From NCBI RefSeq assembly GCF_017814435.1, contig NZ_JAGJCB010000003.1, positions 62,001-126,000 on the forward strand: 64,000 nt of DNA, written 5' to 3'. This DNA is from Mariniflexile gromovii (GTDB taxonomy: Bacteria; Bacteroidota; Bacteroidia; Flavobacteriales; Flavobacteriaceae). Both the position numbers and the translations under genes were made by a program. Positions 1-25,500 of the stretch are shown here, piece after piece. Within the stretch, counting starts at the first letter, position 1. Each line of letters opens with the position of its first letter. The notes below the pieces were generated by a model. The model did not search any database. It saw nothing but the letters and a program-made list of their open reading frames with translations, and was not told the DNA's origin.

Positions 1-51
1 GGAGCTTCATCAAAAGACATTCGTTTAAGAGGAATTTTAACTGTAAAATAA
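1..51 (+). CDS. C-terminal tail of a probable GH3 glycosidase (5' truncated)
   Basis: The first frame is open from the window edge and reads GASSKDIRLRGILTVK before a TAA at 49-51. A segment of the type G-x-SS-xDIRL-x-G followed by a short hydrophobic strand is typical of the fibronectin-III-like C-terminus of GH3 beta-glucosidases and beta-xylosidases, which is the basis of the call. The stop shares its last A with the ATG at 51, so this gene is translationally coupled to the GH30 gene and belongs to the same operon. Only 16 residues are visible, so the family assignment is tentative. Confidence 0.5.
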   Translation, partial: GASSKDIRLRGILTVK

Positions 52-8133: not shown

Positions 8134-9435
8134 ATGAAGAAGATAGCCATTATTTGCCTTTTAGGTTTACTTACATTTACCAGTAATGCTCAAAAACATT
8201 ACCAATACCCCATGCCCGAGTACACACCTACGCAAGGGAATTTAGACGCACGTAAAGAGTTTCAAGATATGAAATTTGGTATGTTCATCCACTGGGGTGT
8301 TTATAGCATTTTAGCCGATGGGGAATGGGTGATGTTTTTAAAGAAAATTAAAGCAGACAACTACGAACGTTTAGCCGATTTCTTTAATCCACAAGATTTT
8401 AATGCGGAAGAGTGGGTGAAAATAGCAAAATCTGCAGGTATGAAATACATCACGATAACCTCGCGTCACCACGACAGTTTCAGTATGTTCGATACCGATG
8501 CCAGCGATTTTAATATTGTAGATGCCACACCTTACGGAAAAGACCCATTAAAAGAATTGGCAGAGGCGTGTAAAAAAGAAGGTATTAAATTGAATTTTTA
8601 CTATTCTTTACTGGATTGGAAACGTGACGATTATAAAGAAGGCAAAAAAGGAGATGCCGAAGCTTGGGACAACTATGTAGACTTTATGAAAGCCCAACTT
8701 ACAGAATTACTAACCAACTACGGTGAAATAGGCATGATTTGGTTTGATGGTCATTGGGACCAAAAAGAAGCAAACTGGCAATACGACGAGATTTATTCTT
8801 TAATTCATAAGTTAAGTCCGAGTACCTTAATAGCTAACAACCACCACATACAACCAATTCCTGGAGATGATATTCAAACATTCGAGCGCGATTTGCCAGG
8901 TGAAAATCACGGTGGTTATAGCGATGGCGTTCACGTTAGTCAATTACCTTTGGAGTCTTGCGCTACCATGGCGAGTAAATGGGGGTACAGTATTTACGAC
9001 GAGAAATTTAAATCAGCAAAACAACTCATTCACTTTTTAGTAAAAGCAGCTGGTAAAAATGGAAATTTATTATTGAACGTAGGCCCGATGCCAAACGGTA
9101 AAATTCAACCAGAATTCGTAGACACTTTAAAGGAAATGGGCGAATGGACTTCTAAATATGGCGAAAGTATTTATGGCACAAGAGGCGATGTTATAAAAAC
9201 CCAAGACTGGGGAACCATTACCAAAAAAGATAAAACGCTTTATGTGCATATATTAAATGGCACATCAGAGCCTTATATTTTTATTCCAGAATTGAAAGAA
9301 AAAATAAGTTCAGCAACATCGTTTGATGGCAAAACAAAAATCAAGTTCAAGCAAATGAAAGAAGGCACATTTTTATATGTAGACACTAATTCTATGAACG
9401 ACATCGATGAAATTGTAAAACTTAACATCAAATAG
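8134..9435 (+). CDS. GH29 alpha-L-fucosidase
   Basis: Retaining exo-alpha-L-fucosidase. A 19-20 residue signal peptide ends SNAQ. Family motifs are FGMFIHWGVYSILADGEW (about 48-65), YITITSRHHDSFSMFDTD (about 105-122) and MIWFDGHWDQ, where D205 is the expected nucleophile. The C-terminal part (about 350-433) is the short beta-sandwich. At 433 residues it is a compact member. GH29 enzymes act on alpha-1,3/4- or alpha-1,2/6-linked fucose; the linkage cannot be told here. It lies 22 bases after the first GH92 and 13 bases before the large esterase. Together with GH92 and GH20 it points to a fucosylated glycan. Confidence 0.94.
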   Translation: MKKIAIICLLGLLTFTSNAQKHYQYPMPEYTPTQGNLDARKEFQDMKFGMFIHWGVYSILADGEWVMFLKKIKADNYERLADFFNPQDFNAEEWVKIAKSAGMKYITITSRHHDSFSMFDTDASDFNIVDATPYGKDPLKELAEACKKEGIKLNFYYSLLDWKRDDYKEGKKGDAEAWDNYVDFMKAQLTELLTNYGEIGMIWFDGHWDQKEANWQYDEIYSLIHKLSPSTLIANNHHIQPIPGDDIQTFERDLPGENHGGYSDGVHVSQLPLESCATMASKWGYSIYDEKFKSAKQLIHFLVKAAGKNGNLLLNVGPMPNGKIQPEFVDTLKEMGEWTSKYGESIYGTRGDVIKTQDWGTITKKDKTLYVHILNGTSEPYIFIPELKEKISSATSFDGKTKIKFKQMKEGTFLYVDTNSMNDIDEIVKLNIK

Positions 9436-9448
9436 AAAGTATTTTATT

Positions 9449-11914
9449 ATGACTAATTTTCGTTTAGGATTCCTTTTATTTATTACCTTTTTGGGTGTTT
9501 CATTACATGCTCAAGACACCATTCCGTTAAAAAACGGATTGGTAATTGGGGCCACCAACAAAGGCGATAGATCCATCATTTATACCGATCCTGTTTTTCA
9601 TAATTTCATAACAAAAACCAATTATGAACCTATTGTAAACGATTCTGTTGGCATAGGAAGACAAGATAACGTGGAACGTTGGGAACCCTTAACCACAGAC
9701 GAAAAAGGCGTTTTTAAAAGTAGAAAACTAAGAGGCGGTTATTTGTATGTTACTTACAATGCGCCTATATCAGAAATTAAAATCCTTGAAATTTCAGGTC
9801 ATAATGAAGTGTTTGTAAATGGCATTCCTCGTGGAGGTGATGTGTATAACAAGCACCTTACGTTTCATCCCATTGAACTCCTTAAAGGAAAAAATACCTT
9901 TTTGGTAAGGGGCGGCCGAGGTGAAGTGTTTATGCAATTACTTTCAGTTGAAAAACCAATTGCTTTGTTGGAACGTGATATGACCAATCCCGATTTTTTA
10001 ACCACTGAAAGCGATATTAAAATTGGGTCTATCAGAATATTGAATTCCACAGCAAAAACACTCAAAAATCTAAAAATCGTAGCAGAATCTCAAGGTAAAA
10101 CATTAGAAACTAAGGTGTCTTCGATTGTGCCCTTATCTATGCGAAAAGTACCGTATCAGGTAAAAGATAATTATACTGAAAAAGATACAGTTCGAGTAAA
10201 AATACAATTGTATGAAGGTTCTAAACTGATTGATGAAGCATCAGTTTTATATCAAGTTAGAACTCCTGAAGAGCGTTATTCGAGAACATTTATTTCAAAC
10301 ATTGATGGTAGTGTACAATATTTTTCAGTAAAAGAAGGTGATTTAAAAACAGATGAAAAGCCTGCCATGTTTTTATCGGTTCATGGTGCCAATGTGGAAG
10401 CGAAAAACCAAGCGGTGCAATATCAAGCCAAAGATTGGGGTCATGTTATAGCCCCAACAAACCGCAGAGATTATGGCTTTAATTGGGAAGATTGGGGCCG
10501 ATGGGATGCTATGGAAGTTCAAGAGCTTACCGAAAAAATGTATGGTACAGACCCAAAGCGTACCTATCTAACAGGGCATTCTATGGGTGGTCATGGCACA
10601 TGGCATTTGGGTGCTATATTTCCTAACAAATGGGCAGCTATTGCACCTATTTCTGGTTGGTATTCGTTGTTTTCGTATGCGAATAAAGAAGAGGTTGAAA
10701 AGCCAACGCCTTTAGAAAATATGTTTGTGCGTTCCAATCATGCTAGCCATACTTTAGAGTTGTCTAGAAATTATCTACACCATGGGGTGTACATTCAACA
10801 TGGTGATGCCGATGAGGTGGTTCCTGTAGACCAAGCCCGATTTATGCGAAAACATTTAGCCGAGTTTCATCCAGATTTCGCATATCTGGAGTATGAAGAC
10901 AAAAAACATTGGTTTGGTATCGATTTTCATACCATATTCGATTATTTTAAATGGCATACCATTCCCGAAAACGGCGATGTAAAAACGTTTGAATTCCGTA
11001 CTCCAAACCCTGGTGTATCTTCAGAAAGTAGATACGTAACATTATATCAACAAGAAAAATTATTTGAATTTTCTGGAGTTAAAGCCACTCAAAATATTCG
11101 TACTGAAAAGCAAATTAAGAATCATGAAGATTTAAAAACACGAACCATTTCTCTTGAAACCGAAAATTTAAAAAAGTTCAAACTCGATTTAAAACATACC
11201 ATAGCTTCAGATACGGTTCAGGTTAAAATAGACAGTACTTCTTTTGAAAATTTAGTGGCATATAAAGGAAAAGAAGTTTGGTTTGAAAAAGTAAATGGCA
11301 CATGGTCATTAACTAAAGCGCCAACCAATACCTTCGAGAAAAATCCAAGCAGGTACGGTAATTTTAAGGAAGCCTTTAAAAACAACATGCTGTTTGTATA
11401 TGGAACAAAAGGTAACGATGCCGAAAATAATTGGGCATTCAACAAAGCCCGTTTTGATGCCGAAACTTTTTATTATCGAGGCAATGGCTCTACAGATATC
11501 ATTTCTGATAAAGAATTTTCACTTAAAAAATATAAAGACCGATCGGTTATTCTATACGGAAATGCTTCTACAAATTCTGCGTGGAAATTGTTGTTGGCCA
11601 AAAGTCCTGTGCAAGTGAAGCGTAACGAAGTTACAGTTGGTAGTAAAATCTTAAAAGGGGATGATTATGGGGTCTATTTAACTTACCCAAGAATAGATAG
11701 TAAAACGGCGTCGGTTGCAGCGATTACAGGAACAGGATTGAAAGGATTTGAGGCAACGATACCTAACAAATATTTTGGTTCAGGAACCGATATTCCTGAT
11801 GTTATGATTTTCACCAATGCCATTTATGCAAATGGTATTGAAAGTGTAAAAGCCGTAGGGTACTTTGGTAATGACTGGAGTTTAGAGCATGGCGAAATCG
11901 AGTGGGGAAATTAA
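9449..11914 (+). CDS. Large secreted alpha/beta-hydrolase (esterase/peptidase S9-like)
   Basis: A signal peptide (residues 1-22, SLHAQ) is followed by about 270 residues rich in beta strands. After that comes an alpha/beta-hydrolase domain (about 300-510) with nucleophile S378 in TYLTGHSMGGHGTW, an Asp in HGDADEVVPVDQ, and a His in EDKKHWFG. The roughly 310 residues that follow have no family I recognise. The hydrolase core resembles PHB-depolymerase/acetyl-xylan-esterase and prolyl-oligopeptidase-like enzymes. In a glycan operon an O-acyl esterase is more likely than a peptidase, but this is inference. The long N- and C-terminal regions could be carbohydrate-binding. Its end overlaps the first possible ATG of the next gene. 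Confidence 0.75.
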   Translation: MTNFRLGFLLFITFLGVSLHAQDTIPLKNGLVIGATNKGDRSIIYTDPVFHNFITKTNYEPIVNDSVGIGRQDNVERWEPLTTDEKGVFKSRKLRGGYLYVTYNAPISEIKILEISGHNEVFVNGIPRGGDVYNKHLTFHPIELLKGKNTFLVRGGRGEVFMQLLSVEKPIALLERDMTNPDFLTTESDIKIGSIRILNSTAKTLKNLKIVAESQGKTLETKVSSIVPLSMRKVPYQVKDNYTEKDTVRVKIQLYEGSKLIDEASVLYQVRTPEERYSRTFISNIDGSVQYFSVKEGDLKTDEKPAMFLSVHGANVEAKNQAVQYQAKDWGHVIAPTNRRDYGFNWEDWGRWDAMEVQELTEKMYGTDPKRTYLTGHSMGGHGTWHLGAIFPNKWAAIAPISGWYSLFSYANKEEVEKPTPLENMFVRSNHASHTLELSRNYLHHGVYIQHGDADEVVPVDQARFMRKHLAEFHPDFAYLEYEDKKHWFGIDFHTIFDYFKWHTIPENGDVKTFEFRTPNPGVSSESRYVTLYQQEKLFEFSGVKATQNIRTEKQIKNHEDLKTRTISLETENLKKFKLDLKHTIASDTVQVKIDSTSFENLVAYKGKEVWFEKVNGTWSLTKAPTNTFEKNPSRYGNFKEAFKNNMLFVYGTKGNDAENNWAFNKARFDAETFYYRGNGSTDIISDKEFSLKKYKDRSVILYGNASTNSAWKLLLAKSPVQVKRNEVTVGSKILKGDDYGVYLTYPRIDSKTASVAAITGTGLKGFEATIPNKYFGSGTDIPDVMIFTNAIYANGIESVKAVGYFGNDWSLEHGEIEWGN

Positions 11915-11931
11915 TTAAGACATCATTGATT

Positions 11932-13440
11932 ATGCGTTGTTTAATAAATGTAAAACGAATTTTGATTTTCATCTTTGTTGCAAGTATGTTTTCGTTTAAA
12001 ACAACTTCTCAAGTAAAAAATCAACAACCAAACTTTATTTTTATCATGGTTGATGATTTAGGAAAAGAATGGATTTCAAGTTACGGCGCTTCCGAAATTG
12101 AAACACCTAACATCGACCAAATAGCAGCAACAGGAATAAAATTTAATAACGCCTATTCAATGCCACAATGTACACCAAGTCGTGTGGCTTTAATTACGGG
12201 GCAATACCCATATTCAAACGGTTGGGTGAGTCATTTTGATGTGCCTCGTTGGGGATTGGGAGTTAACTTTGATGCCGATAAAAACCCAAGTTTTGCCAAA
12301 GTATTACAACAATCAGGGTATAAAACAGGTATAGCAGGGAAATGGCAAATAAACGATTTTAGGATAGAACCCAAAGCCATGGAAAAAGCTGGGTTTGATG
12401 CCTTTTGTATGTGGACAGGGTATGAATCTGGGAATAAGCCTAGTGAAAATCGTTATTGGGATCCATATATTTATACCAAAGAAGGCAGCAAAACTTACAA
12501 AGGTCAATTCGGACCCGATATTTTTTCCGATTTCATCATTGATTTTATAAATAATAATAAGGATAATCCTTTTTGTGTCTATTATCCTATGGTGTTAACG
12601 CATACACCATTTGTACATACGCCTCATGAACCCCATGTTAAAACCAATTATGAAAAGCATCAGGCCATGGTTCGATATACCGATTTCATTATTGGTAAAA
12701 TAGTGAAGTCGCTTGAAGATTCTGGATTAATGGATAATACCTACCTAATTTTTACCACAGATAATGGAACAGCGCCCTATATTGTTGGAAAAAGAAATGG
12801 TGTTTATATGCGAGGAGGAAAAGCCTTTCTTACTGAAAATGGTATTAATGCACCATTTATAGTATCAACACCCTCTAAAAATCATTTTGAAAGTGATGCT
12901 TTAATAGATTTTACAGATGTTTATCCAACATTATTAGAGTTGGCAGGAATAAAAAAAGATTCAAATGTTGCCATTGATGGTCATTCATTTGCCGATGTGT
13001 TATCAGGAAAAACTAAAAAAAGCCAGCGAGATTATACGCTATCCATGGGAGGTTTACCGGCAGGAATTGATGAGGAAGGAAGAATGCAGAACGCCTTTGT
13101 ATTCAGAGATAGAGTGCTTCGAAATGAAAAATTTAAAGTGTATGTAGATAGCCTAAAACAAGTAATTCGTTTGTTTGATATGGAAAAGGATCCTTATGAA
13201 ACTAAAAATCTTATTGAAAATAAATCGTATCGAAAAGTAGTGAAGCAATTCAATAATTACGTCAATACATTACCTAATGCCGATGCTAATCCTAAATATA
13301 ACAAAATTGAAGGCTTGCCAAGTGATGAAGATCCGGAAGTTTTAAATAAAGCCGCAAAACGGAGCAAAAATAGAAAAACCAATATGATGCCGTTAGCCAC
13401 CAAGGAAGAGTTTTTAAAAGTAAGTAGTAAAACAAATTAA
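11932..13440 (+). CDS. Second sulfatase (S1 type)
   Basis: Sulfatase with NFIFIMVDDLGKEW (metal site) and the signature PQCTPSRVALITGQYP, in which Cys80 (counting from ATG 11932) becomes formylglycine. FTTDNGTAPYIVG is the second metal-binding segment. An in-frame ATG at 11902 overlaps the upstream gene, but starting at 11932 gives a clean signal peptide (MRCLINVKRILIFIFVASMF and on to TSQ), so 11932 is preferred. It is clearly different from the first sulfatase (CTPSRY versus CTPSRV and different surroundings), so it is not a recent duplicate. Its C-terminus is Lys- and Asn-rich. Substrate and subfamily are not assigned. Confidence 0.92.
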   Translation: MRCLINVKRILIFIFVASMFSFKTTSQVKNQQPNFIFIMVDDLGKEWISSYGASEIETPNIDQIAATGIKFNNAYSMPQCTPSRVALITGQYPYSNGWVSHFDVPRWGLGVNFDADKNPSFAKVLQQSGYKTGIAGKWQINDFRIEPKAMEKAGFDAFCMWTGYESGNKPSENRYWDPYIYTKEGSKTYKGQFGPDIFSDFIIDFINNNKDNPFCVYYPMVLTHTPFVHTPHEPHVKTNYEKHQAMVRYTDFIIGKIVKSLEDSGLMDNTYLIFTTDNGTAPYIVGKRNGVYMRGGKAFLTENGINAPFIVSTPSKNHFESDALIDFTDVYPTLLELAGIKKDSNVAIDGHSFADVLSGKTKKSQRDYTLSMGGLPAGIDEEGRMQNAFVFRDRVLRNEKFKVYVDSLKQVIRLFDMEKDPYETKNLIENKSYRKVVKQFNNYVNTLPNADANPKYNKIEGLPSDEDPEVLNKAAKRSKNRKTNMMPLATKEEFLKVSSKTN

Positions 13441-13464: not shown

Positions 13465-15762
13465 ATGAAAAATTATATAGCTTTTTTATTCATAACGTTA
13501 CTTTTAGCGTCGTGTGCACAAACAAAACCGACTTTCAAAGTAGAAGATATTTCGCTACTGCCAAAACCAACAAGTTTTCAGTTAAAGGAAAGTTCCTTTC
13601 AGTTCAAGGCGAATACATCCGTAGTACAACAAGATAAAAGTCAGCAAAAGGCTGTAAATTATCTTCTAGGATTGTTTAAAGCGGCAGCAGAATTCAATTT
13701 ACAGGTGGTAAATAAAGTATCTGAAAATGCCATTGTTTTTGAAAATGTTGAAGGATTAAAAGATGGTGCATATACTTTAGAGGTGAATCCAACGTCCATT
13801 ATGGTAAAAGCATCGGAAGAAACTGGGTTTTTTAATGCCGTTCAAACCATTCGCCAGTTATTGCCAGTAGACATTGAAAGTAAAGAAAAAGTGCAAGCAA
13901 ATTGGTTTGTGCCTTGTGTTGTTATAGAAGATGAACCTCGTTTTGTTTGGCGTGGTATGCATAACGATTTTAGTCGTCATTTTATTGATATTGATGAGGT
14001 TAAATCTTTTTTAGATTATATGGCGCTTTATAAATTGAATACCTATCACATGCATTTAACCGATGACCAAGGGTGGCGCATTGAAATAAAAAAATATCCA
14101 TTATTAACCGAAAAAGGTGCTTGGAGAACGCCAAACAATCAAGATACCATTTGTATGGAAAGAGCTGTGGAAAACAAGCTGTATACCATTGATGAGGCTA
14201 AATTTAAAGAGATTGATGGAGAGCGTAAATACGGTGGCTTTTTCACCCAAGAGCAAATTAAGGAAATTGTTGCCTATGCTGATGAACGTTGTATTACCGT
14301 AATTCCAGAAATAGATATGCCTGGTCACTTCAAATCGGCCATCGATAATTATCCGTTTTTATCATGTAACGAAGAATCTGGTTGGGATACCGTATTTACC
14401 TATCCAACGTGTTTAGGTAAGGAAACAACCTATGAATTCATGAAAAATGTATTAAGTGAAGTGATTCCTTTATTTCCTGCTAGTTATGTTCATATTGGTG
14501 GTGATGAAGTGAATATCAAATCATGGGAAAAATGTCCTAACTGTCAAAAAGCCATCAAAGAGCACGGGTTAAAAAACGAACACGAATTACAATCATTCTT
14601 CAATAGGGATATCGAGCAATTTTTACAATCCAAAGGAAAACAATTTTTGGGCTGGGATGAAATTGTTGAAGGTGGTTTAACAAAAGAAGCTACCATCATG
14701 TGGTGGAGAGGATGGCGACCTGAAGCGCCAAAAAAAGCGGCAGAAAATGGAAACGACGTGATAATAACACCAACCGATGCTTATTATTTCGATTATTTAA
14801 ATGAAGGAAACACCTTGGAAAAAATATATAATTACGAACCCATTCCAGAACATTTTACAGCAGAAGAGGCTAATCATGTTTTGGGCATTCAAGCCAATTT
14901 ATGGTCCGAATGGATTCCTAGTTTTAAGCGTTTGCAGTACCAAGCATTCCCCAGAATGTTGGCAGTGGCAGAAAATGCATGGGTAGATCAAGAACGCGAT
15001 TTTGAAGCGTTTAATAAAAGAGTCGAAAAGCAATACGACCGTTTAGATATGCTGGATGTGTATTATTACATTCCTGCTGTTCAAGGTCTTGAAAAGGATA
15101 TTGCTTTTGTGGATACTACCGAAGTTACATTAAAATTGGCTTACCCACTTGATGGGGTCGATATTTATTATTCTTTAGATGGCAGTATTCCAACAAAAGA
15201 AACCATAAAATATAACGGACCTTTTGTGGTAAACGATACCATTACTATTAAAGCACGTGCTTATCGTGGCGATAAATTCAACGATTTAAAAACGGCAAAA
15301 GTTATTCAGAAAGTTTATAAAGGAGCTTCTAGTGAAACCCCAAAGGCATCAGGATTAAAAAGATGGATTACCAGAGGGAGGTTCAAAAAAGTAGAAGAAA
15401 TCAAAACACCTACTGATACTAATTTCACCAAAGTGGATAGTATTTCTTTAGGAGACTTTAAAAATGAAAAAGACTTTTCTATAAGTTACCAAGGGTATTT
15501 TAAAGCGGAAAAAGATGGAATTTATGAATTTGAAACGCGCTCTGATGGTGGTAATTTATTGTTTATCGGAAATGAAGTCGTTGTAGATAATGGCGGTTAT
15601 CATGGACCAAGAAAACGCCACGGAAAGATAGCCTTAAAAAAAGGATGGCATCCCATAACCATTCACTACAAACCCAGCGAAAACCCGAAAATGATTGATG
15701 TGTGGTATGCGTTACAAGGTGAAGAACTAACACCAATAAGCAGTTCTGTTACAGGTTTTTAA
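13465..15762 (+). CDS. GH20 beta-hexosaminidase with PA14-like C-terminal domain, lipoprotein
   Basis: Lipobox LLASC puts Cys17 as the lipidated residue, so the protein is membrane-anchored. GH20b domain to about 150; barrel from PRFVWRGMHNDFSRHF; HMHLTDDQGWRIEIKKYP and HIGGDE with the D347-E348 catalytic pair. A chitobiase C-terminal sandwich (VDIYYSLDGSIPTKETIKY) follows, and then an extra roughly 120-residue domain whose YQGYFKAEKDGIYEFETRSD, NLLFIGNEVVVDNGGYHG and GWHPITIHY segments are PA14-like, a fold often used for glycan binding. At 765 residues it is about 145 longer than the other GH20 of the operon. The split (soluble versus lipid-anchored with binding module) suggests different points of attack. 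Confidence 0.93.
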   Translation: MKNYIAFLFITLLLASCAQTKPTFKVEDISLLPKPTSFQLKESSFQFKANTSVVQQDKSQQKAVNYLLGLFKAAAEFNLQVVNKVSENAIVFENVEGLKDGAYTLEVNPTSIMVKASEETGFFNAVQTIRQLLPVDIESKEKVQANWFVPCVVIEDEPRFVWRGMHNDFSRHFIDIDEVKSFLDYMALYKLNTYHMHLTDDQGWRIEIKKYPLLTEKGAWRTPNNQDTICMERAVENKLYTIDEAKFKEIDGERKYGGFFTQEQIKEIVAYADERCITVIPEIDMPGHFKSAIDNYPFLSCNEESGWDTVFTYPTCLGKETTYEFMKNVLSEVIPLFPASYVHIGGDEVNIKSWEKCPNCQKAIKEHGLKNEHELQSFFNRDIEQFLQSKGKQFLGWDEIVEGGLTKEATIMWWRGWRPEAPKKAAENGNDVIITPTDAYYFDYLNEGNTLEKIYNYEPIPEHFTAEEANHVLGIQANLWSEWIPSFKRLQYQAFPRMLAVAENAWVDQERDFEAFNKRVEKQYDRLDMLDVYYYIPAVQGLEKDIAFVDTTEVTLKLAYPLDGVDIYYSLDGSIPTKETIKYNGPFVVNDTITIKARAYRGDKFNDLKTAKVIQKVYKGASSETPKASGLKRWITRGRFKKVEEIKTPTDTNFTKVDSISLGDFKNEKDFSISYQGYFKAEKDGIYEFETRSDGGNLLFIGNEVVVDNGGYHGPRKRHGKIALKKGWHPITIHYKPSENPKMIDVWYALQGEELTPISSSVTGF

Positions 15763-15768
15763 TCGATA

Positions 15769-17436
15769 ATGAATCTGATAAACATGGGTAAATTAAATTT
15801 AAGTAAACATATTATTGTTTCCATATTAGCATTTTTTAGTGTTTTAGGAACAGAAATAGTTGCACAGAAAGCACCTTTAATTTTAGATATGGTACATCAC
15901 AATCCAGGTGAGACACCATATCAATCTAAATACAATAACCCTGCGGTTGTAAAAGAAATGGGCTATAATGGTAAGGTGTATTTTCTTTTTGAATCGCCAG
16001 CGTTGGCCATTAATTGGGAGTCGGTAGATGCCGATATTTTGCCCAAAGGTTCAGAAGATCGTAAATGGGTTGATGAAAAGGCGGCGCAAATAAAGCAAAT
16101 GCATGCAGCATGTAAAGCAGAAGGTATGGCTATTTACGCCATGTCAGACCTTGTTTTGTTTCCTAAAAGATTGATTGAGAAATTCCAAATAGAAAAAACC
16201 TTTGGAGATCCTAACGATGCGTTAACCGAAAAATTGATACGTGCCCAAATAAACGAAATGTTCGATCAATTTTCAGACATGGATGGCTTGGTAGTTCGTA
16301 TTGGTGAAACTTATCTGCACGATGCACCTTATCATTTAGGAGCTATTGAGGATAAAAAAAGTCCAGAAAAAACAATCATTCCCCTCATCAATATATTGAA
16401 AGAAGAAATTTGTGTAAAACGGGATAAGCAACTTATTTTCCGCACTTGGGGAGCCTTTGATGTAAATTTGGAGGCTTACCTAAAAGTTAGTGATGCCGTA
16501 GAGCCACATAAAAATTTAATTATTAGTGTTAAGCACTGTGAAGGCGATTTTCATAGAGCAAACGCGTTTAGTAAAGTGATTGGGCAAGGGCGCCATCGTC
16601 AAATTATCGAAGTGCAATCGGCTCGCGAGTATGAAGGAAAAGGGGCTTACCCTAACTATATTGCAAACGGCGTTATTGATGGTTTTGAGGAGCATGCTAG
16701 TATGCCAGAAGAAGCAATCAACAGTATTCAAGAGTTTGTAGATACCAAAACAGAATTGTATGCAGGTGTTTGGACATGGTCTCGCGGTGGCGGATGGGAT
16801 GGTCCGTATATTAAAGATGAGTTGTGGTGCGATTTAAATTCTTGGGTAATGGCGCAATGGGGTCAAAACACAGATAAAAGTGAGGCGTTTATTTTTAATA
16901 GATATGCCACAGAACGCTTGAATTTAACTGGTGATGATGTTGCTAAATTCAGAAAACTATGTCTGCTTTCTGCGGAAGCCGTAGTAAGAGGCAGAAACAC
17001 TACATTTAGAGACATGAACCCTTGGTGGACGCGAGATCAAGGTATCGCATGGCCTATGGTAGGTAAGGGTGAATTGGCACATAAAAGAAACTTGGCGCAA
17101 AAGGATGAAGCGGTAGCAAAATGGGAAGAAATTGTAAGGTTAGCAAAATCTATACGTTGGCAAAATGAAGAAACTAAAAATCATGCCATCGGTTCTTCGG
17201 AATACGGATTAAGACTGTATAAAATATATAGAATTTTGGTATATATGGATGCTGCCGTAATTAAAAAGGATGAAAAAGAGGTTAAAAAGTGGATTAAAGC
17301 CTATGATAAGGCTTGGAAAGATTATAATAAATTAGCAGAAGAATACAGTAGCATTGCCACGCTTTACACCCAAGATTATAAAAGACATATTGCAAATAAT
17401 GCAAATCTTATGGTAAATAAATTGAGAACGAAGTAA
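15769..17436 (+). CDS. Divergent GH67-like (alpha-glucuronidase-like) secreted protein
   Basis: Not a standard family member. The start is ATG 15769 or ATG 15784; both give a signal peptide ending EIVAQ. From memory of GH67 alignments, three stretches look related: GLVVRIGETYLHD (E180), ISVKHCEGDFHR (D260), which resembles the IKNGPxDFQ strand holding a catalytic Asp of alpha-glucuronidases, and IIEVQSAREYEG (E281 or E287), which resembles their ExQxxQEYxG strand holding the paired Glu. WTWSRGGGWDGPY and DLNSWVMAQWG parallel the later GH67 barrel. At 555 residues it lacks the GH67 N-terminal domain. Location between GH20 and GH92 supports a glycosidase role. Uronic-acid removal is a hypothesis; it could be a new specificity. 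Confidence 0.55.
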   Translation: MNLINMGKLNLSKHIIVSILAFFSVLGTEIVAQKAPLILDMVHHNPGETPYQSKYNNPAVVKEMGYNGKVYFLFESPALAINWESVDADILPKGSEDRKWVDEKAAQIKQMHAACKAEGMAIYAMSDLVLFPKRLIEKFQIEKTFGDPNDALTEKLIRAQINEMFDQFSDMDGLVVRIGETYLHDAPYHLGAIEDKKSPEKTIIPLINILKEEICVKRDKQLIFRTWGAFDVNLEAYLKVSDAVEPHKNLIISVKHCEGDFHRANAFSKVIGQGRHRQIIEVQSAREYEGKGAYPNYIANGVIDGFEEHASMPEEAINSIQEFVDTKTELYAGVWTWSRGGGWDGPYIKDELWCDLNSWVMAQWGQNTDKSEAFIFNRYATERLNLTGDDVAKFRKLCLLSAEAVVRGRNTTFRDMNPWWTRDQGIAWPMVGKGELAHKRNLAQKDEAVAKWEEIVRLAKSIRWQNEETKNHAIGSSEYGLRLYKIYRILVYMDAAVIKKDEKEVKKWIKAYDKAWKDYNKLAEEYSSIATLYTQDYKRHIANNANLMVNKLRTK

Positions 17437-19653
17437 ATGAAATATTATAGCTATTTAATACTGGTATTAGGTTTAGGAGTTATTTCTTGTAAAGATGGAA
17501 ATAAACAGAAAGTAAAAGAAGTTTCAATAGAAAAACTTACCAGTTACGTAAACACCTTTACGGGTACCGATGGCCCTGGGAACACCTATCCCGGAGCCGT
17601 GGTGCCTTTTGGGATGGTACAGTTAAGTCCAGATAATGGTTTGCCTGGTTGGGATAGAATTGCAGGCTATTTTTACCCAGATTCTACCATTGCAGGTTTT
17701 AGCCATACGCACCTTTCTGGTACCGGAGCGGGTGATATGTACGATTTGTTGGTGATGCCCTTAAATAGCAGATTTACTGAAAGTTTAACGCCAGAGGGCG
17801 CTTACAGGCCTTATTCTAAATTTTCACACGAAAAAGAAAAAGCGAGTCCGGGGTATTATTCTGTAGATTTATTAAGTTCTGGCATCAAAGCAGAATTAAC
17901 AACAACAGCACGTGTTGGCTTTCATCAATATACGTTTCCTGCAGATGAAAAAAGCCAAATCATTCTCGATTTGGGCTATAGTTTAAATTGGGATAAACCT
18001 ATGGAAACTAAAATTACCATAGAGGATACCCGAACCATTTCAGGCTACAGAAAATCGAAAGGGTGGGCAGCGGACCAACGCGTGTATTTTGTTATGAAAT
18101 TCTCTAAACCATTTGATAACGCTCAGTTATATAAAAATTCTGAAGCAATAAATGAACAAACTGTTGAAGGGCAGTTTACCAAGATAATAGCAGATTATAA
18201 AACGTCCGATAATGAAAAAATACTGGTAAAAGTAGCCTTGTCTTCAGCAAGTATTGAGGGCGCTCGTAAAAACTTAGACGCTGAAATACCTCATTGGAAC
18301 TTCAACCAAACCGTTGAAGAAGCTGATAAAGTTTGGGAACAGTATCTTTCAAAAATAAAAATAGAAGGAACAAAGGAGCAGAAAGAATTGTTTTATACCA
18401 ATTTGTATCATGTATTTTTAACCCCATCATTACATAGCGATATAGATGGGGCTTACAAGGGTGCCGACGGAAATAACCACATAGCCAAGGGTTATAACAA
18501 ATACGATACTTTTTCGCTTTGGGATACCTTTAGAGCAACACATCCATTATATACCATGATTGCCCCCAACGAAACGGAGGATATGATTAAATCGTTTCTG
18601 TCACATTATGATGAAACAGGTCTGTTGCCCGTTTGGTCGTTAGCAGGCAATGAAACGAATATGATGATTGGTTACCACGCAGTTCCTGTTATTGTAGATG
18701 CGTACTTTAAAGGGATTCCTTTAGATGCTAAAAAAGCATTGGAAGCATGTGTAGCATCGGCCACAGAAAAGGGCAGACAAATAGATACCTATATGAAATT
18801 AGGATATGTGCCAACAGGTGAAAGTCATGAAAATTGGTCCGTATCCAAAACATTAGAATATGCTTATAACGATTGGTGCATTGCACAATTAGCAAAAGCC
18901 TTGGGTGAAAAAGACATTGAGAAAACCTTTGCCAAAAGAGCCACGAATTGGAAAAATTTATACGATTCAAAATCTACTTTTTTCCGTCCAAAAGATGAAA
19001 AAGGAAATTTTACAAGTCCGTTTTCGCCCAAAGAATATACCAAAGAGTTTTGCGAAAGTAATGCATGGCAATATTTTTGGTTTGTGCCCCACGATATAGA
19101 TGGGTTGATAACTGTTTTAGGTAAAGAACGTTTTACACAAAAACTGGATTCCATGTTTACGTATTACCCTGCTAAAGATGATAAGTTACCCATTTTCAGT
19201 ACAGGCATGATTGGTCAATATGCACATGGAAACGAACCTAGTCATCATGTGGCATATTTGTATAACAACATCCATCAGCCATGGAAAACCCAAGAAATGG
19301 TTCGTAAAATCATAAACACCCAATATAGTACCAAGCCTGATGGTTATTGTGGTAATGAAGATTGCGGACAAATGTCGGCGTGGTTAGTCTTTTCTTCCAT
19401 AGGAATGTATCCTATAAATCCAGCCGATGGTATTTATAGTTTAACATCGCCATATATACAAGAAGCAACAATTCAATTAGAAAATGGAAAGCAATTTAAA
19501 ATAACTACCGAAAATCAATCGGATGAAAACAAGTACATACAGGCTATGACTTTAAACGGAAAACCCTATAATAAACTTACTTTAACCCATAAGGAAATAT
19601 TGGAAGGTGGCCAACTTCATTTTGTGTTGGGTAGTAATCCAAATAAAGATTGA
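17437..19653 (+). CDS. Second GH92 alpha-mannosidase, lipoprotein
   Basis: Lipobox VISC gives a lipid-anchored protein (Cys at about 19). The GH92 hallmarks are YPGAVVPFGMVQLSPDNG near the N-terminus, THLSGTGAGDM, the YDTFSLWDTFRATHPLY segment and the C-terminal GYCGNEDCGQMSAWLVFSSIGMYPINP. Its ATG directly follows the upstream TAA without a gap, so the genes are coupled. It differs enough from the GH92 at 5778 (SGTGAGDM versus SGVGWFGD; LWDTFRA versus GWDVFRS) to be a separate subgroup rather than a recent copy. It is the last gene of the degradative operon; no strong hairpin follows, and the regulator gene starts after a 76-base AT-rich gap with its own promoter. Confidence 0.95.
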   Translation: MKYYSYLILVLGLGVISCKDGNKQKVKEVSIEKLTSYVNTFTGTDGPGNTYPGAVVPFGMVQLSPDNGLPGWDRIAGYFYPDSTIAGFSHTHLSGTGAGDMYDLLVMPLNSRFTESLTPEGAYRPYSKFSHEKEKASPGYYSVDLLSSGIKAELTTTARVGFHQYTFPADEKSQIILDLGYSLNWDKPMETKITIEDTRTISGYRKSKGWAADQRVYFVMKFSKPFDNAQLYKNSEAINEQTVEGQFTKIIADYKTSDNEKILVKVALSSASIEGARKNLDAEIPHWNFNQTVEEADKVWEQYLSKIKIEGTKEQKELFYTNLYHVFLTPSLHSDIDGAYKGADGNNHIAKGYNKYDTFSLWDTFRATHPLYTMIAPNETEDMIKSFLSHYDETGLLPVWSLAGNETNMMIGYHAVPVIVDAYFKGIPLDAKKALEACVASATEKGRQIDTYMKLGYVPTGESHENWSVSKTLEYAYNDWCIAQLAKALGEKDIEKTFAKRATNWKNLYDSKSTFFRPKDEKGNFTSPFSPKEYTKEFCESNAWQYFWFVPHDIDGLITVLGKERFTQKLDSMFTYYPAKDDKLPIFSTGMIGQYAHGNEPSHHVAYLYNNIHQPWKTQEMVRKIINTQYSTKPDGYCGNEDCGQMSAWLVFSSIGMYPINPADGIYSLTSPYIQEATIQLENGKQFKITTENQSDENKYIQAMTLNGKPYNKLTLTHKEILEGGQLHFVLGSNPNKD

Positions 19654-19703: not shown

Positions 19704-19732
19704 TTGTAGATTAAAAATAATATTTATATTTG
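19704..19732 (+). promoter_or_regulatory. Promoter of the regulator-xylose cassette
   Basis: TTG at 19704-19706, 18 bases, then TATATTTG at 19725-19732 match the Bacteroidota housekeeping promoter (TTG, spacer of about 19, TAnnTTTG). Transcription would start near 19738-19742, which excludes the TTG at 19730 as a translation start. Confidence 0.7.
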
Positions 19733-19756
19733 CAAACCAGAACAGAACAGAACGGT

Positions 19757-20746
19757 TTGATTCATTTTGATATTAATACGAATAGTGAGGTGCCTAGGTA
19801 TCAACAATTGGTTAATGCAGTTAATGATGCATTGGCTAATAATACCTTGTCTAATGGTGATGCTTTGCCTTCTGTGAATGCTGTTTGTAAAGACTACAAT
19901 TTGTCTAGAGACACCGTTTTTAAAGCATATTCTATCTTAAAAGAAAACGGGGTGGTTGAATCTGTTCCAAACAAAGGCTATTATGTAGCGAATGATACCC
20001 GAAAGGTGCTTCTCGTTTTAGATACCTTTAAAGCTTACAAAGAAGTATTGTACCATGAGTTTGTAAATAATTTGCCTAAAAAAGTGATTGTAGATGTGCA
20101 GTTTCATCATTATAACATCAACAATTTCAAAACTATTTTAAATAATAGTAAAGGGAAATATTTTAAATATGTCGTGATGACTTTCGACCATAAAGAAGTA
20201 TCCGATGTGTTGTTCGATTTTGATAATGATAAATTATTGTTAATCGATTGGAACGTCCATTCAAAAAAATCTAACAATTACGTTTTTCAAGATTTTGGAA
20301 ATGCCTTCCATGATGCTTTACAGGAAGCTGTTGTTCCTTTTAAAAGGTACAAAAAATTGGTTTTTGTATATCCTACATTTACAAAACACCCAACAGAATC
20401 GGTGTCGTTTTTTAAGCAATTCTGCGAAAGTCAAAATTTTAAATATAAAATTGTTACCGATGTGAACGATTTTAAAGTAGTAAAAGGGGAAGCCTATATA
20501 AGTGTTAGCGATAGGATTTTAGGAACATTTTTAGAGCAATGCCGTATCGAAGCATTCGAACCGGGTGTCGATGTTGGGTTTCTATCTTATAATGAAACCC
20601 CTATGAAAAAATTCATTTACAAAGGGATTTCGGTGGTGTCAACCGATTTTAAAGCCATGGGTGCCAAAGCAGCAGAATTCATCAATCAAGATGCCCCAAT
20701 ACAAACATACATACCAACTAAATTAATATTAAGAGATTCACTATAA
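19757..20746 (+). CDS. GntR-type regulator with LacI-like sensor domain
   Basis: Probable regulator of the xylose genes. Residues about 1-70 form a winged helix of the GntR type (EVPRYQQLVNAVNDAL, LPSVNAVCKDYNLSRDTVFKAYSILKENGVVESVPNKGYYV). The rest resembles a periplasmic-binding-protein sensor (EAFEPGVDVGFLSYNETPMKKF, ending in a LacI-like VVSTDFKAMGAKAAEFI). The frame has no ATG near its start. It opens with a TTG at 19730, but that lies inside the -7 box, so the TTG at 19757 (M-IHFDINTNSEVPRY) is more likely and fits the usual N-terminus of such proteins. Xylulokinase follows after 4 bases, so this regulator is co-transcribed with its probable targets and the ligand is likely a pentose. 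Confidence 0.82.
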   Translation: MIHFDINTNSEVPRYQQLVNAVNDALANNTLSNGDALPSVNAVCKDYNLSRDTVFKAYSILKENGVVESVPNKGYYVANDTRKVLLVLDTFKAYKEVLYHEFVNNLPKKVIVDVQFHHYNINNFKTILNNSKGKYFKYVVMTFDHKEVSDVLFDFDNDKLLLIDWNVHSKKSNNYVFQDFGNAFHDALQEAVVPFKRYKKLVFVYPTFTKHPTESVSFFKQFCESQNFKYKIVTDVNDFKVVKGEAYISVSDRILGTFLEQCRIEAFEPGVDVGFLSYNETPMKKFIYKGISVVSTDFKAMGAKAAEFINQDAPIQTYIPTKLILRDSL

Positions 20747-20750
20747 AATT

Positions 20751-22235
20751 ATGTACTATTTAGGATTAGACATTGGAAGTTCATCTATAAAAGCAGCTTT
20801 GGTTGAAATAGCTTCAGGCAAAAGCTTAGGTGTAGTTCAAGAACCTGAAAAAGAAATGGGCATGTTTGCTCAAAAAAATGGATGGGCAGAACAGAAACCA
20901 GACGATTGGTGGCAGCATGTATGCAATGCCATACAGAAGTTGAAAAAGCAGCACAACATATCAAGAACACAAATAAAAGGCATCGGTATTTCGTACCAAA
21001 TGCACGGTTTGGTGGTTGTGGATAAGGCAGGGAAACCGCTTCGTAAAAGTATCATTTGGTGCGATAGTAGAGCGGTGGAAACCGGACACAAAGCTTTTGA
21101 AGAAATAGGCGAAGCAACCTGTGCAGCTCATTTGCTAAATTCACCAGCAAATTTTACAGCCTCCAAATTAAAATGGGTTAAAGATAACGAGCCAGACATT
21201 TATAAAAACATTTACAAGTTTATGCTTCCGGGCGATTATGTTGCCTATAAGTTTTCAAACAAAATAAATACCACCATATCAGGCTTGTCTGAAGGCATTT
21301 TTTGGGATTTCAAGAAGGATGAGGTAGCCAATTTTCTTTTAGAGCATTATGGCATCGACAAAGCATTAGTACCCGATATTGTCGACACCTTTGGTGAGCA
21401 ATCTTTAGTGGATGAACAAGGTGAGGCCGAAAGCGGTATCGCAGCAGGAACCCCTATTTATTACCGTGCAGGCGATCAACCCAACAATGCGCTGTCCTTA
21501 AACGTGTTCAATCCAGGTGAAGTTGCTGCAACAGGCGGTACTTCGGGTGTGTTTTATGCCGTAACAGAAAGTCTTTCGGGTAAGGAAAGCACGCGGGTTA
21601 ATAATTTTGCACACGTTAACTATAAGAAATCAATCCCGAGAATAGGTAAGTTGTTAAATATTAACGGTGCCGGAATACAATACCGTTGGTTATTGAATAA
21701 TTTGGCGGTAAGTAGTTACGAAGAGATGAATAATCTAGCATCCGAAATTCCAGTAGGTTCCGATGGCGTTTGCCTAATTCCATTCGGTAATGGTGCAGAA
21801 CGTATGCTAAACAATAAAGAAATCGGCACGCGTATTGTCAATCTCAACTTAAACAACCACCACAAGGGGCACATGTGCCGTGCGGCACTTGAAGGTATCG
21901 CCTTTTCGTTTGTGTATGGTATGGAAATCTTAAAGTCCGATGGTATCAAACCTACCGTTATTCGCGCTGGAAACGACAACCTGTTCCGGTCAGAAATTTT
22001 CGCAAATACGGTGGCGACATTAATCGAGCAAGAAATAGAAATTTACAATACCACGGGCGCCATTGGTGCAGCACGTGCGGCTAATTTACATAAAGGCGAT
22101 TTTAAAAGTTTTGGAAAAGCCATCATCGACAACGACCATGTTATGACCTTCATGCCTTTTAAAGACAAAACAGCATACCAAGAAGCCTATAACAACTGGA
22201 AAACCGAATTAGAAATAGTAATCAATAATAAATAA
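20751..22235 (+). CDS. xylB: Xylulokinase
   Basis: ATP-dependent phosphorylation of D-xylulose to xylulose 5-phosphate in the cytoplasm. FGGY-kinase fold: phosphate-1 loop YYLGLDIGSSSIKAALVE at the start, GIGISYQMHGLVVVD, the substrate-contact IIWCDSRA, the catalytic Asp D242 in RAGDQPNNAL, and the adenosine-site GGTSGVFYAV. At 494 residues it has the usual length. It lies between the regulator (4-base gap) and xylose isomerase, in the order regulator-xylB-xylA-symporter. A 236-base repeat-filled gap separates it from xylA. Confidence 0.95.
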   Translation: MYYLGLDIGSSSIKAALVEIASGKSLGVVQEPEKEMGMFAQKNGWAEQKPDDWWQHVCNAIQKLKKQHNISRTQIKGIGISYQMHGLVVVDKAGKPLRKSIIWCDSRAVETGHKAFEEIGEATCAAHLLNSPANFTASKLKWVKDNEPDIYKNIYKFMLPGDYVAYKFSNKINTTISGLSEGIFWDFKKDEVANFLLEHYGIDKALVPDIVDTFGEQSLVDEQGEAESGIAAGTPIYYRAGDQPNNALSLNVFNPGEVAATGGTSGVFYAVTESLSGKESTRVNNFAHVNYKKSIPRIGKLLNINGAGIQYRWLLNNLAVSSYEEMNNLASEIPVGSDGVCLIPFGNGAERMLNNKEIGTRIVNLNLNNHHKGHMCRAALEGIAFSFVYGMEILKSDGIKPTVIRAGNDNLFRSEIFANTVATLIEQEIEIYNTTGAIGAARAANLHKGDFKSFGKAIIDNDHVMTFMPFKDKTAYQEAYNNWKTELEIVINNK

Positions 22236-22471: not shown

Positions 22472-23797
22472 ATGGCATTAATAGGAAACAAAGAATACTA
22501 CAAAGGTATTGGAGACATCAAATTTGAAGGAAAAGAATCAGACAACCCATTAGCGTTTAAATACTACAACCCAGACCAAGTGGTTGCAGGTAGAACGATG
22601 CGCGAGTGGTTTAAATTTTCGGTAGCATACTGGCATACATTCTGTGGACAAGGATCAGATCCATTCGGTCCTGGCACACAAAGTTTCGAGTGGGACAAAG
22701 CATCCGATCCCATTCAAGCAGCAAAAGACAAGGCTGATGCCGCTTTTGAATTCATCACTAAAATGGGATTCGGTTACTACTGTTTCCACGATTACGATTT
22801 AATCCAAGAAGGATCAACCTTCGCAGAATCTGAAAGCAGATTAGCAACCATCACCGAGTATTTAAAACAAAAACAAGCCGATTCTGGCGTGAAATTACTT
22901 TGGGGAACAGCCAACTGTTTTTCAAACCCACGTTACATGAACGGTGCTTCAACAAACCCAGATTTTAATGTAGTAGCACGTGCTGGTGGACAAATAAAAC
23001 TGGCTTTAGATGCTACAATGGCATTAAACGGAGAAAATTATGTTTTCTGGGGTGGTCGTGAAGGTTACATGACGCTTTTAAACACCGATATGGGACGTGA
23101 GTTGGATCACATGGGACAGTTTTTAGCTATGTGTAGAGATTACGCCCGTGCCAATGGCTTTAAAGGTAATTTCTTCATCGAACCAAAACCAATGGAGCCA
23201 TCTAAACACCAATACGATTTCGATTCGGCTACGGCTATCGGTTTCTTAAAAGAATACGGTTTAGATAAAGATTTCAAAATAAACATTGAAGTAAATCACG
23301 CAACCTTGGCACAACACACCTTCCAACACGAAATTGAAGTGGCTGCTAAAGCGGGTATGTTGGGAAGTTTAGATGCTAATCGTGGTGATTACCAAAACGG
23401 TTGGGATACAGACCAGTTCCCAAATAACATTCAAGAAACTACCGAAGCCATGTTGGTATTCCTAAAAGCTGGTGGCTTACAAGGTGGCGGTGTTAATTTT
23501 GATGCTAAAATCAGAAGAAACTCAACCGATTTAGAAGATGTATTCCATGCACACATTGGTGGCGCCGATACTTTTGCTAGAGCTTTAATTACTGCTGATA
23601 AAATCATGACGTCTTCGGCTTACAACAAGCTTAGAACAGAGCGCTATGCATCATTCGATTCTGGTAAAGGAAAGGATTTTGAAAAGGGTAAATTAGGTTT
23701 ACAGGATTTATACAAAATAGCTCAAGAAAACGGCGAATTGCCACTAACAAGTGGGAAACAAGAGTTGTTTGAAAATATAATTAACCAATATATTTAA
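22472..23797 (+). CDS. xylA: Xylose isomerase
   Basis: Interconverts D-xylose and D-xylulose with two divalent metals in the cytoplasm. It is a class II (long) enzyme of 441 residues. Motifs are [25 protein letters not shown] with catalytic H106 and D109, [41 protein letters not shown], the metal ligands around [19 protein letters not shown], and [19 protein letters not shown]. The start ATG follows a G-poor tandem leader. With xylB and the downstream symporter it completes xylose entry into the pentose phosphate pathway. Confidence 0.97.
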
Positions 23798-23829: not shown

Positions 23830-25500
23830 ATGAAACATCATTTTTTAGTTATGCAATCAGTTTTAGAAAACTTAGATTGGGTAGTATTAGGAATTTACTT
23901 CCTTGCGCTTATAGCGGTGGCCGTTTGGGTTGTTCTTCAAAAAAACAAAGACACCGAAGATTACTTTTTGGCAGGTAGAAATGTGGGGTGGTTTGTTATT
24001 GGAGCTTCCATTTTTGCGTCCAATATTGGGTCGGAACACGTTGTTGGGCTTGCAGGAACGGGATTTGAATCGGGTACGCCCATGGCGCATTACGAGCTGC
24101 ATGCGTGGATTGTTTTGCTTTTAGGGTGGTTGTTTTTACCGTTTTATATTCGAAGTGGTGCTTTTACCATGCCAGAGTTCTTGGAAAAACGTTTTGACAG
24201 TCGTTCGCGTTGGTTCCTGTCCTTGTTCTCATTGGTCGCTTATGTGCTTACAAAAGTATCTGTAACTATTTATGCCGGTGGTATTGTGGTGTCTGAACTT
24301 TTAGGAATTCCGTTTTGGTACGGCGCTATTGGTATTGTAGTTTTTACAGGAATTTATACGGTTGTGGGAGGTATGAAAGCGGTTATTTATACCGAAACCT
24401 TGCAAACTGTGATACTAATATTTGGTTCGGTTGTAATAACCTATTTAGGCTTACAAGAAGTAGGTGGTTGGTCGCAATTGAGAGAGACTGTAACGGCGGT
24501 AAGTCCGGAGCATTTTAATATGTGGCGTCCTATGAACGATCCGCAATTTCCATGGACAGGTCTGTTAATAGGTGGTACCATCGTTGGTATTTGGTATTGG
24601 TGTACGGACCAATATATTGTACAGCGTACATTGGCTGCAAACAATATTAAAATTGGTAGACGTGGTGCTATTTTTGGAGCTTATTTAAAATTGCTTCCTA
24701 TATTGATTTTCTTGGTTCCTGGTATTATTGCATTCGCATTATCTATCCAAAACCCAGAAGTGTTTTCGGTTGAAAAGGCTGATAGAGCATTCCCTATGTT
24801 AGTGAAAACCTTATTGCCGGTTGGTTTAAAAGGATTGGTAGCTGGAGGGTTAATGGCAGCTTTAATGAGTTCATTGGCTTCGGTTTTTAACTCATGCTCA
24901 ACAATTTTCACCATAGATATTTATAAAAAATTATATCCAGAAAAAACGGAGAAAGTTTTGGTAAATACAGGTAAAATAGCAACCGGATTTATTGTTGTGT
25001 TGGGTATTATTTGGATCCCCATTATGGAAAAAATAGGTGGTGGTGTTATGTATCAGTACCTTCAAAATGTACAATCATACATTGCGCCTCCGGTAACAGC
25101 TGTGTTTTTATTGGGAATTATATGGAAACGCGTTAATTCCACCGCAGCTATAACCACCTTGTTAACGGGATTGGTGCTGTTGGTTTTAAGGTTAAGTAGT
25201 GAAATATATTACCAGCCACAAATACTTGCAGGTGAAACTGTGGAAGGGATAGCCTATGCTTTTGCAACCATAAATTTTGCGCACATGGCAATATTCATGT
25301 TTATTTTCTCGGTGTTTATTTGTATTTCTGTGAGTTTGATGACGCAAGCGCCAAATTATGAAACTATAAAAGGATTGGCATTTGGTACCCTTTCTGAAGA
25401 ACAAAAAGCAGCTAACAAAGGTAGTTACGACACGATTGATGTGGTGCTGTCGGTACTACTTGTTGTTATTGTTATTGGGGTTTTAACCTACTTTACTTAG
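23830..25500 (+). CDS. Sodium/solute symporter (SSS family), probable xylose transporter
   Basis: Polytopic inner-membrane protein of 556 residues with about 14 hydrophobic segments. Family landmarks are DYFLAGRNVGWFVIGASIFASNIGSEHVVGLAGTG near the N-terminus (TM1-2 sodium and sugar site), SGAFTMPEFLEKRFDSRSRW, TGIYTVVGGMKAVIYTE, YWCTDQYIVQRTLAA and AGGLMAALMSSLASVFNSCSTIFTIDIYKK. These are typical of the SGLT-like branch for sugars. It lies 32 bases after xylA, so import of D-xylose is the best guess; a related sugar is possible. A second ATG (residue 8) gives an equally good N-terminus. The gene is followed by a long palindrome that should end transcription. Confidence 0.92.
   Translation: MKHHFLVMQSVLENLDWVVLGIYFLALIAVAVWVVLQKNKDTEDYFLAGRNVGWFVIGASIFASNIGSEHVVGLAGTGFESGTPMAHYELHAWIVLLLGWLFLPFYIRSGAFTMPEFLEKRFDSRSRWFLSLFSLVAYVLTKVSVTIYAGGIVVSELLGIPFWYGAIGIVVFTGIYTVVGGMKAVIYTETLQTVILIFGSVVITYLGLQEVGGWSQLRETVTAVSPEHFNMWRPMNDPQFPWTGLLIGGTIVGIWYWCTDQYIVQRTLAANNIKIGRRGAIFGAYLKLLPILIFLVPGIIAFALSIQNPEVFSVEKADRAFPMLVKTLLPVGLKGLVAGGLMAALMSSLASVFNSCSTIFTIDIYKKLYPEKTEKVLVNTGKIATGFIVVLGIIWIPIMEKIGGGVMYQYLQNVQSYIAPPVTAVFLLGIIWKRVNSTAAITTLLTGLVLLVLRLSSEIYYQPQILAGETVEGIAYAFATINFAHMAIFMFIFSVFICISVSLMTQAPNYETIKGLAFGTLSEEQKAANKGSYDTIDVVLSVLLVVIVIGVLTYFT

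Follow-up and report, generated by a model that had tools for sequence, protein, structure and literature searches.

A 555-residue protein in an array of glycan-degrading genes

The window, by which we mean the whole 64,000-nucleotide stretch of Mariniflexile gromovii DNA analysed, carries a gene for a 555-residue protein (the 555-aa protein), which forms one same-strand array with all the other window genes listed in Table 1. As stated in the original prediction, the gene is flanked by a GH20 ORF and a GH92 ORF. We also examined the upstream stretch of the same contig (C23:12001-63000). Its opposite strand carries SusC, SusD, two sulfatases and an MFS transporter. On the same strand as the 555-aa gene are two GH20, two GH92, a symporter, a GH29, four sulfatases, a GH3 with PA14, a GH95, a GH130, a CBM9 protein, a GHL10 glycosidase-like protein, an Asparaginase_2 (glycosylasparaginase-type) protein, PNGase F, a GH30, two further sulfatases and a second PA14 GH3. 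Contig C23 thus totals four GH92, four GH20, two GH29, one GH95, two GH3 and ten sulfatases, together with xylose genes.

Table 1. Positions of the 555-aa gene, its neighbours in the window, and the predicted features and candidate active-site codons of its product
Feature	Position	Strand	Basis or remark
GH30 glycosidase	51..1484	+	Pfam
GDSL-like esterase	1499..2287	+	Pfam
GH20 beta-hexosaminidase	2290..4149	+	Pfam
Sulfatase	4153..5640	+	Pfam
GH92 alpha-mannosidase	5778..8111	+	Pfam and NCBIfam
GH29 alpha-L-fucosidase	8134..9435	+	Pfam
S9-peptidase/esterase-fold protein, 821 aa	9449..11914	+	Pfam; esterase/S9 fold in the middle only, other parts unassigned
Sulfatase	11902..13440	+	Pfam
GH20 beta-hexosaminidase with PA14	13465..15762	+	Pfam
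GH67-like putative exo-uronidase, 555 aa	15769..17436	+	ATG start; structure prediction and alignments
Predicted N-terminal helix, signal-like	residues 5-31 of the 555-aa protein		by eye
Predicted TIM barrel	about residues 37-340 of the 555-aa protein		predicted structure
Helical C-terminal part	residues 352-555 of the 555-aa protein		predicted structure
R177 codon	16297..16299	+	faces GH67 Lys: R 58/58, K 10/10
E180 codon, proposed catalytic acid	16306..16308	+	just after barrel strand 4
R225 codon	16441..16443	+	strand 5; Arg in 58/58 family, 10/10 GH67
D260 codon, proposed base or water-positioning acid	16546..16548	+	just after strand 6; D 58/58, 10/10
E281 codon	16609..16611	+	within strand 7; E 58/58, 10/10
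E287 codon, proposed base	16627..16629	+	after strand 7; E 57/58, 9/10
GH92 alpha-mannosidase	17437..19653	+	Pfam and NCBIfam
GntR-type regulator	19730..20746	+	Pfam
FGGY sugar kinase, xylulokinase-like	20751..22235	+	Pfam; below NCBIfam cut-off
Xylose isomerase (XylA)	22472..23797	+	NCBIfam
Sodium:solute symporter	23830..25500	+	Pfam

The genes that we took together as the mark of an N-glycan locus, namely PNGase, GH92, GH20, GH130 and SusC/D, occur jointly on C23, with SusC/D on the opposite strand. The earlier description of a mannose/HexNAc locus is correct but too narrow, as PNGase F, GH130, the glycosylasparaginase-type protein, fucosidases, sulfatases and xylose genes are also present. 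The first three of these suggest that the locus is aimed at N-glycans, and the genes for xylose, fucose and sulfate are compatible with a decorated N-glycan of a plant, algal or invertebrate kind, which is the likeliest substrate at the C23 locus. The same combination of PNGase, GH92, GH29, GH3 and GH130 functions is described for plant N-glycan loci of gut Bacteroides in the available text of PMC9522356. The present locus differs from those in its added sulfatases and GH67-like protein, and a count of "glucuron" in that text gave 0. We interpret XylA and the kinase as serving xylose catabolism. We set aside a role in glucuronoxylan breakdown here, as no GH10 or GH11 was found among the Pfam-scanned genes (a subset of the ORFs, in which GH30 can include xylanases). 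UxaC, present in two copies on other contigs of this genome, says little, since 7 of the 14 control genomes also carry it.

No lipobox cysteine was seen in the 555-aa protein on inspection by eye. Searched alone, the protein gave no GH67 match in Pfam at E≤1, nothing in NCBIfam at E≤0.1, and only four weak, chance-like matches among PDB sequences by phmmer (best E 0.078). A single-sequence Pfam match to RPN11_C (E 0.0048) was under that family's cut-off and was rejected as spurious. Searches of Pfam-A, NCBIfam and PDB sequences give the family no name, and the proposal of an uncharacterised glycosidase family is consistent with the libraries searched. The literature searched, with most subscription papers outside its scope, names no such family.

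Relationship to GH67

Relatives were collected across the genome collection with six short peptide patterns, giving 58 loci. Alignment A1 comprises 54 rows, namely the window protein and 53 relatives that are 46-86% identical. At E≤1, 41 of the 54 members matched PF07488, the middle domain of GH67, with 1.8e-6 as the lowest value. RPN11_C, the Pfam family that followed, was matched by 12 members (best 0.0048), which sets the noise level of this comparison. In a search of 11 genomes, two relatives exceeded Pfam's own cut-off for PF07488. When the family was compared with ten true GH67 proteins by hhalign, the alignment covered 244 columns at E 1.6e-4, with a probability of only 50%, and paired D260 with the GH67 Asp and E287 with the Glu of the GH67 QEYLG motif.

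As a control, a profile of the ten GH67 proteins was run with filters off against the 641 ORFs called in the loci (L074, the same gene as L017, being a repeat in this set). Among the 58 clustered family ORFs, 13 fell under E 0.001, 23 under 0.016, 49 under 0.18 and 57 under 1, the 58th being the divergent paralogue L073 (E 17). The four long multidomain family ORFs, which clustered apart from the 58, gave E 0.58-2.9. Only three of about 570 other ORFs, neither family nor GH67, fell under E 1: two GH20 (0.016 and 0.18) and one unassigned ORF (0.61). The window protein itself gave E 0.074, and 35 of the 58 family ORFs scored no better than the best unrelated GH20. In the reverse run, the family profile found nine of the ten GH67 proteins at E≤0.48 (best 6e-4); the tenth, L070, gave E 3 and the first unrelated ORF 1.9. 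Against PDB sequences, the family profile picked up no GH67 chain at E≤1, and three weak matches to FliS and a rhoptry fragment (E 0.21-0.29) in that search were set aside. The family as a whole resembles GH67 more than chance allows; the window sequence taken singly does not.

We modelled the protein with AlphaFold2 using A1 as input (pLDDT 88.7, pTM 0.88). The confidence falls to 68 at residues 261-270 and 65 at residues 341-350. The original prediction depended on a TIM barrel, and this is the fold predicted, with strands taken at residues 37-43, 68-71, 121-127, 173-178, 221-226, 250-258, 277-283 and 331-340; strands 129-132 and 189-192 were not counted into the barrel. A control model of a true GH67 protein reached a pLDDT of 71.3 with strand 7 unresolved, and is thus only a loose guide for strands 4-6. 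In Foldseek, the top match was GH67 1mqq (E 3.9e-12, TM 0.56), almost tied with GH138 (E 5.1e-12, TM 0.52), and GH84, GH20 and GH89 followed lower. In VIA-align, the top match was GH67 1k9e (Z 21.1, rmsd 3.8, 406 residues), and the first nine rows were all GH67 (Z 21.1-19.1). GH138 came at Z 18.7 (rmsd 4.2), with the longest alignment among the rows listed (463 residues), and the GH84 and GH20 barrels at Z 17.3-18.6. VIA-align treats rows within 1 Z as ties, so that the lower GH67 rows are level with GH138 and GH84, and the top five GH67 rows are clear of both. The homology to the GH67 middle domain that had been proposed is therefore borne out by the PF07488 matches, hhalign, the GH67-profile run and the fold comparison.

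GH115 was only tentatively set aside as the nearest relative, there being no GH115 among the 50 rows listed by each of Foldseek and VIA-align. According to the available text of PMC3879575, the GH115 xylan alpha-1,2-glucuronidases have the GH67 core fold in common, and the active-site residues are not conserved. In contrast, the GH67 active-site residues appear to be retained in the 555-aa protein. GH138 (BP0997, acting on rhamnogalacturonan II; a pectin enzyme in PDB titles) is the second structural family, nearly tied with GH67 in Foldseek, and shows 9-14% identity to the protein.

The protein resembles GH67 (1k9e/1mqq of Bacillus stearothermophilus and 1h41 of Pseudomonas cellulosa) in its barrel, its acid-bearing strands, and the aligned D260/E281/E287 and basic pair. 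It differs in its low identity (11-14%), in having no match to GH67N and GH67C, in its context, where the xylan setting was not seen, and in its length, which is 144-188 residues below that of ten GH67 ORFs taken from other genomes (699-743 aa). The N-terminal shortfall first noted was confirmed: a long piece is missing, since barrel strand 1 starts at residue 37 of the predicted structure, the structural alignment (model residues 31-510 with 1k9e residues 86-679) begins at GH67 residue 86, and the GH67 ORFs are as long as given above. Of the 20 Pfam families that the 54 members matched between them at E≤1, none was GH67N or GH67C; the helical C-terminal part of the model nonetheless aligns to GH67 residues up to 679. 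We did not file the protein in GH67, because two of the three GH67 domain models are unmatched. It most likely works like GH67 despite these unmatched domains.

Candidate active-site residues

E180, D260 (in KHCEGDFH), and E281 and E287 (in EVQSAREYEG) were found where the original prediction placed them, and all four are invariant across the 54 rows of A1. As had been suggested, they align with GH67 acids. They are located at the ends of strands 4, 6 and 7 of the predicted barrel. The family and GH67 counts in Table 1 come from a joint MAFFT alignment of 58 family rows and ten GH67 rows, in which K255 and W343 also face a GH67 Lys and a GH67 Trp (10/10 each). MAFFT sets E180 two columns from the GH67 Glu, on a GH67 Asn, and the HMMER alignment of a relative, L028, pairs it with the GH67 Glu using one gap. 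The distance from E180 to E281, 101 residues, equals that from E285 to E386, mutated positions given in the PDB titles of 1k9e and 1mqr; the GH67 positions in PDB titles are E285, E386 and E292. In GH67, the Lys/Arg pair facing R177 and R225 binds the uronate carboxylate, and the set of Glu (strand 4), Asp (strand 6) and Glu (strand 7) provides the catalytic acid and base.

We consider it very improbable that the protein is a catalytically dead or non-hydrolytic barrel with a binding role. In the joint alignment, the divergent paralogue L073 carries Ala in place of E287, which would fit such a loss, and keeps the equivalents of E180, D260 and E281; the invariance of all four acids across the 54 rows and five phyla argues against it. 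An altered specificity on the same ancestral barrel, either a GH138-like alpha-galacturonidase or a non-uronic glycosidase acting, e.g., on N-acetylhexosaminides, appears distinctly unlikely. GH138 has galacturonidase activity. The near-tie and long alignment with GH138, the GH84 and GH20 barrels coming next, and a GH20 as the best unrelated ORF in the GH67-profile run are in accordance with this possibility, but GH67 was top in both structure searches and the aligned basic pair and D260/E281/E287 are retained.

Distribution, genomic contexts and proposed function

The family occurs in five phyla, Bacteroidota, Verrucomicrobiota, Kiritimatiellota, Lentisphaerota and Planctomycetota. Many of its source genomes are MAGs, and two MAGs from different phyla (L029 and L030) carry identical proteins. 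The gene is sparse: among 295 genomes sampled from the class, the window's own was the single carrier, and the gene occurred in 4 of 149 relatives and in 3 of the 6 genomes of the genus. No family match was found in the phage records, and only 2 of 72,556 plasmid records, both Persicobacter, had one. In some relatives the domain lies inside long proteins (L042:3746-7375, L049:4194-11279, L050:502-5328 and L052:6537-11306); of the two scanned, L042 also has SASA and Golvesin_C, and L052 has DUF5013. A genus-mate carries the 36% identical paralogue (L073:10598-12259), in a locus that holds GH29 and GH31 clusters.

In a tree of 58 rows, of which 28 are without a label, the window protein falls in a 15-row group (clade A, support 100/99), all from GH20/GH92-type loci. 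In the fetched flanks of the 14 other clade-A loci, labelled by Pfam on one or two representatives per single-linkage cluster, we found GH20 in 14, GH92 and a right-handed beta-helix protein in 11 each, the cluster of the window's 821-aa esterase-fold protein in 8, sulfatase genes in 7 and GH29 in 6. The gene next downstream is a GH92 in 10 of these loci, and the one next upstream is a GH20 in 8. The beta-helix protein, near the family gene in 20 of the 58 loci (e.g. L054:1892-4084), was not found in the window's first 30 kb or in L059/L060, where a sulfatase occupies its usual place. PNGase F (PF09113) was searched for in 14 clade-A genomes (that of L005 was left out). It lies on the same contig, 33-44 kb off, in 4 of them, the window's included, and anywhere in 8 (three being weak, 828-838-aa frames), with none in 6. 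In 8 non-clade-A genomes with the gene, PF09113 occurs in 5, on the same contig in 0. Since PNGase F is near in 4 of 14 genomes, the N-glycan reading is well founded for the C23 locus and tentative for the clade as a whole.

The window's genome has a second family copy, 72% identical, on a different contig (C49:62001-100000; L071/L072). It belongs to clade B, grouping with copies from GH95/GH31-type loci, and its neighbours are GH95, DUF2961, SASA (sialate-esterase-like), a sulfatase, GH31, GH43 and a heparinase II/III-type lyase. Neither of two large proteins encoded beside it, L072:8919-10880 (653 aa) and L072:10896-13628 (910 aa), was matched by Pfam at E≤0.001, and the cluster of each recurs in 3 other fetched loci. 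Some relatives lie in loci without N-glycan marks. Fucosidases, esterases and sulfatases are found in both clade-A and clade-B contexts, and removal of uronic acid from fucose would suit both.

Taken together, the homology observed, the predicted fold, the gene context, and the acids' conservation and placement on the barrel strands lead us to favour, with modest confidence, a periplasmic, probably inverting exo-uronidase, homologous to the GH67 catalytic domain, that would uncap a decorated N-glycan or a similar glycan. From these observations we infer the activity, mechanism, anomer, type of uronic acid, linkage, substrate and periplasmic location. In this model, the protein is reduced relative to GH67, lacking the N-terminal domain, and would have been remodelled away from the active site. 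A terminal hexuronic acid would be bound in a pocket on the C-terminal face of the predicted barrel, where R177 and R225 may hold its carboxylate, E180 may protonate the glycosidic oxygen, and D260/E287 may activate water for a single displacement as in GH67. The enzyme would take off a uronic acid in alpha linkage, GlcA being the likeliest, from an N-glycan bearing sulfate, fucose and xylose or from a similar mannose/HexNAc/fucose glycan, clearing the way for the fucosidases and the GH20 and GH92 enzymes. A review, PMC6994554, reports GlcA on antennal fucose of N-glycans from a marine snail and from the blue mussel without giving the anomer, and describes insect GlcA caps as beta-linked. The insect caps count against this reading, because a GH67-like enzyme is expected to cut alpha.

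An exo-uronidase of the same design could instead act on a fucose-containing sulfated algal polysaccharide, such as GlcA on fucan or a fuco-branched glucuronomannan, with the N-glycan genes belonging to a neighbouring, merged locus; we regard this as possible but rather unlikely. GlcA on fucose also occurs in some brown algal fucans. Consistent with this alternative, a GH29, GH95 or beta-helix cluster is present in 35 of the 58 fetched loci and a sulfatase cluster in 23, and no PNGase F is near in 10 of the 14 clade-A genomes. The clade-B copies, including this genome's second, lie beside GH95, GH31, GH43, esterases and sulfatases, and GH29/GH95, xylosidases, GH30 and GH31 are typical of such loci in the available text of PMC6298971. 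However, the PNGase F, GH130 and glycosylasparaginase-type protein at the present locus indicate glycoprotein glycans, as does the GH20 in all 14 other clade-A loci. Diatom glucuronomannan loci were also considered and set aside: they have GH92 and sulfatases in common with the present locus (PMC9723552, PMC6298971), but the glucuronomannan in the available text of PMC9723552 has beta-GlcA.

The broader proposal, that these proteins of five phyla form a glycoside hydrolase family of their own, new and sister to GH67, in which the clade-A members would be the first known enzymes to uncap uronic acid (e.g. GlcA on fucose) from marine N-glycans, is speculative and unlikely. E180, D260 and E287 are testable residues for the unnamed family, and the enzyme might serve as an analytical tool for glucuronylated glycans of invertebrates or algae. 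The 555-aa protein would be a marine bacterium's putative enzyme, distant kin of those that trim acidic sugars from xylan, in a cluster seemingly devoted to glycoprotein sugar chains. If the preferred exo-uronidase reading is true, it would add a uronidase step to marine glycoprotein-glycan breakdown and would show the move of the GH67 catalytic site out of xylan degradation.
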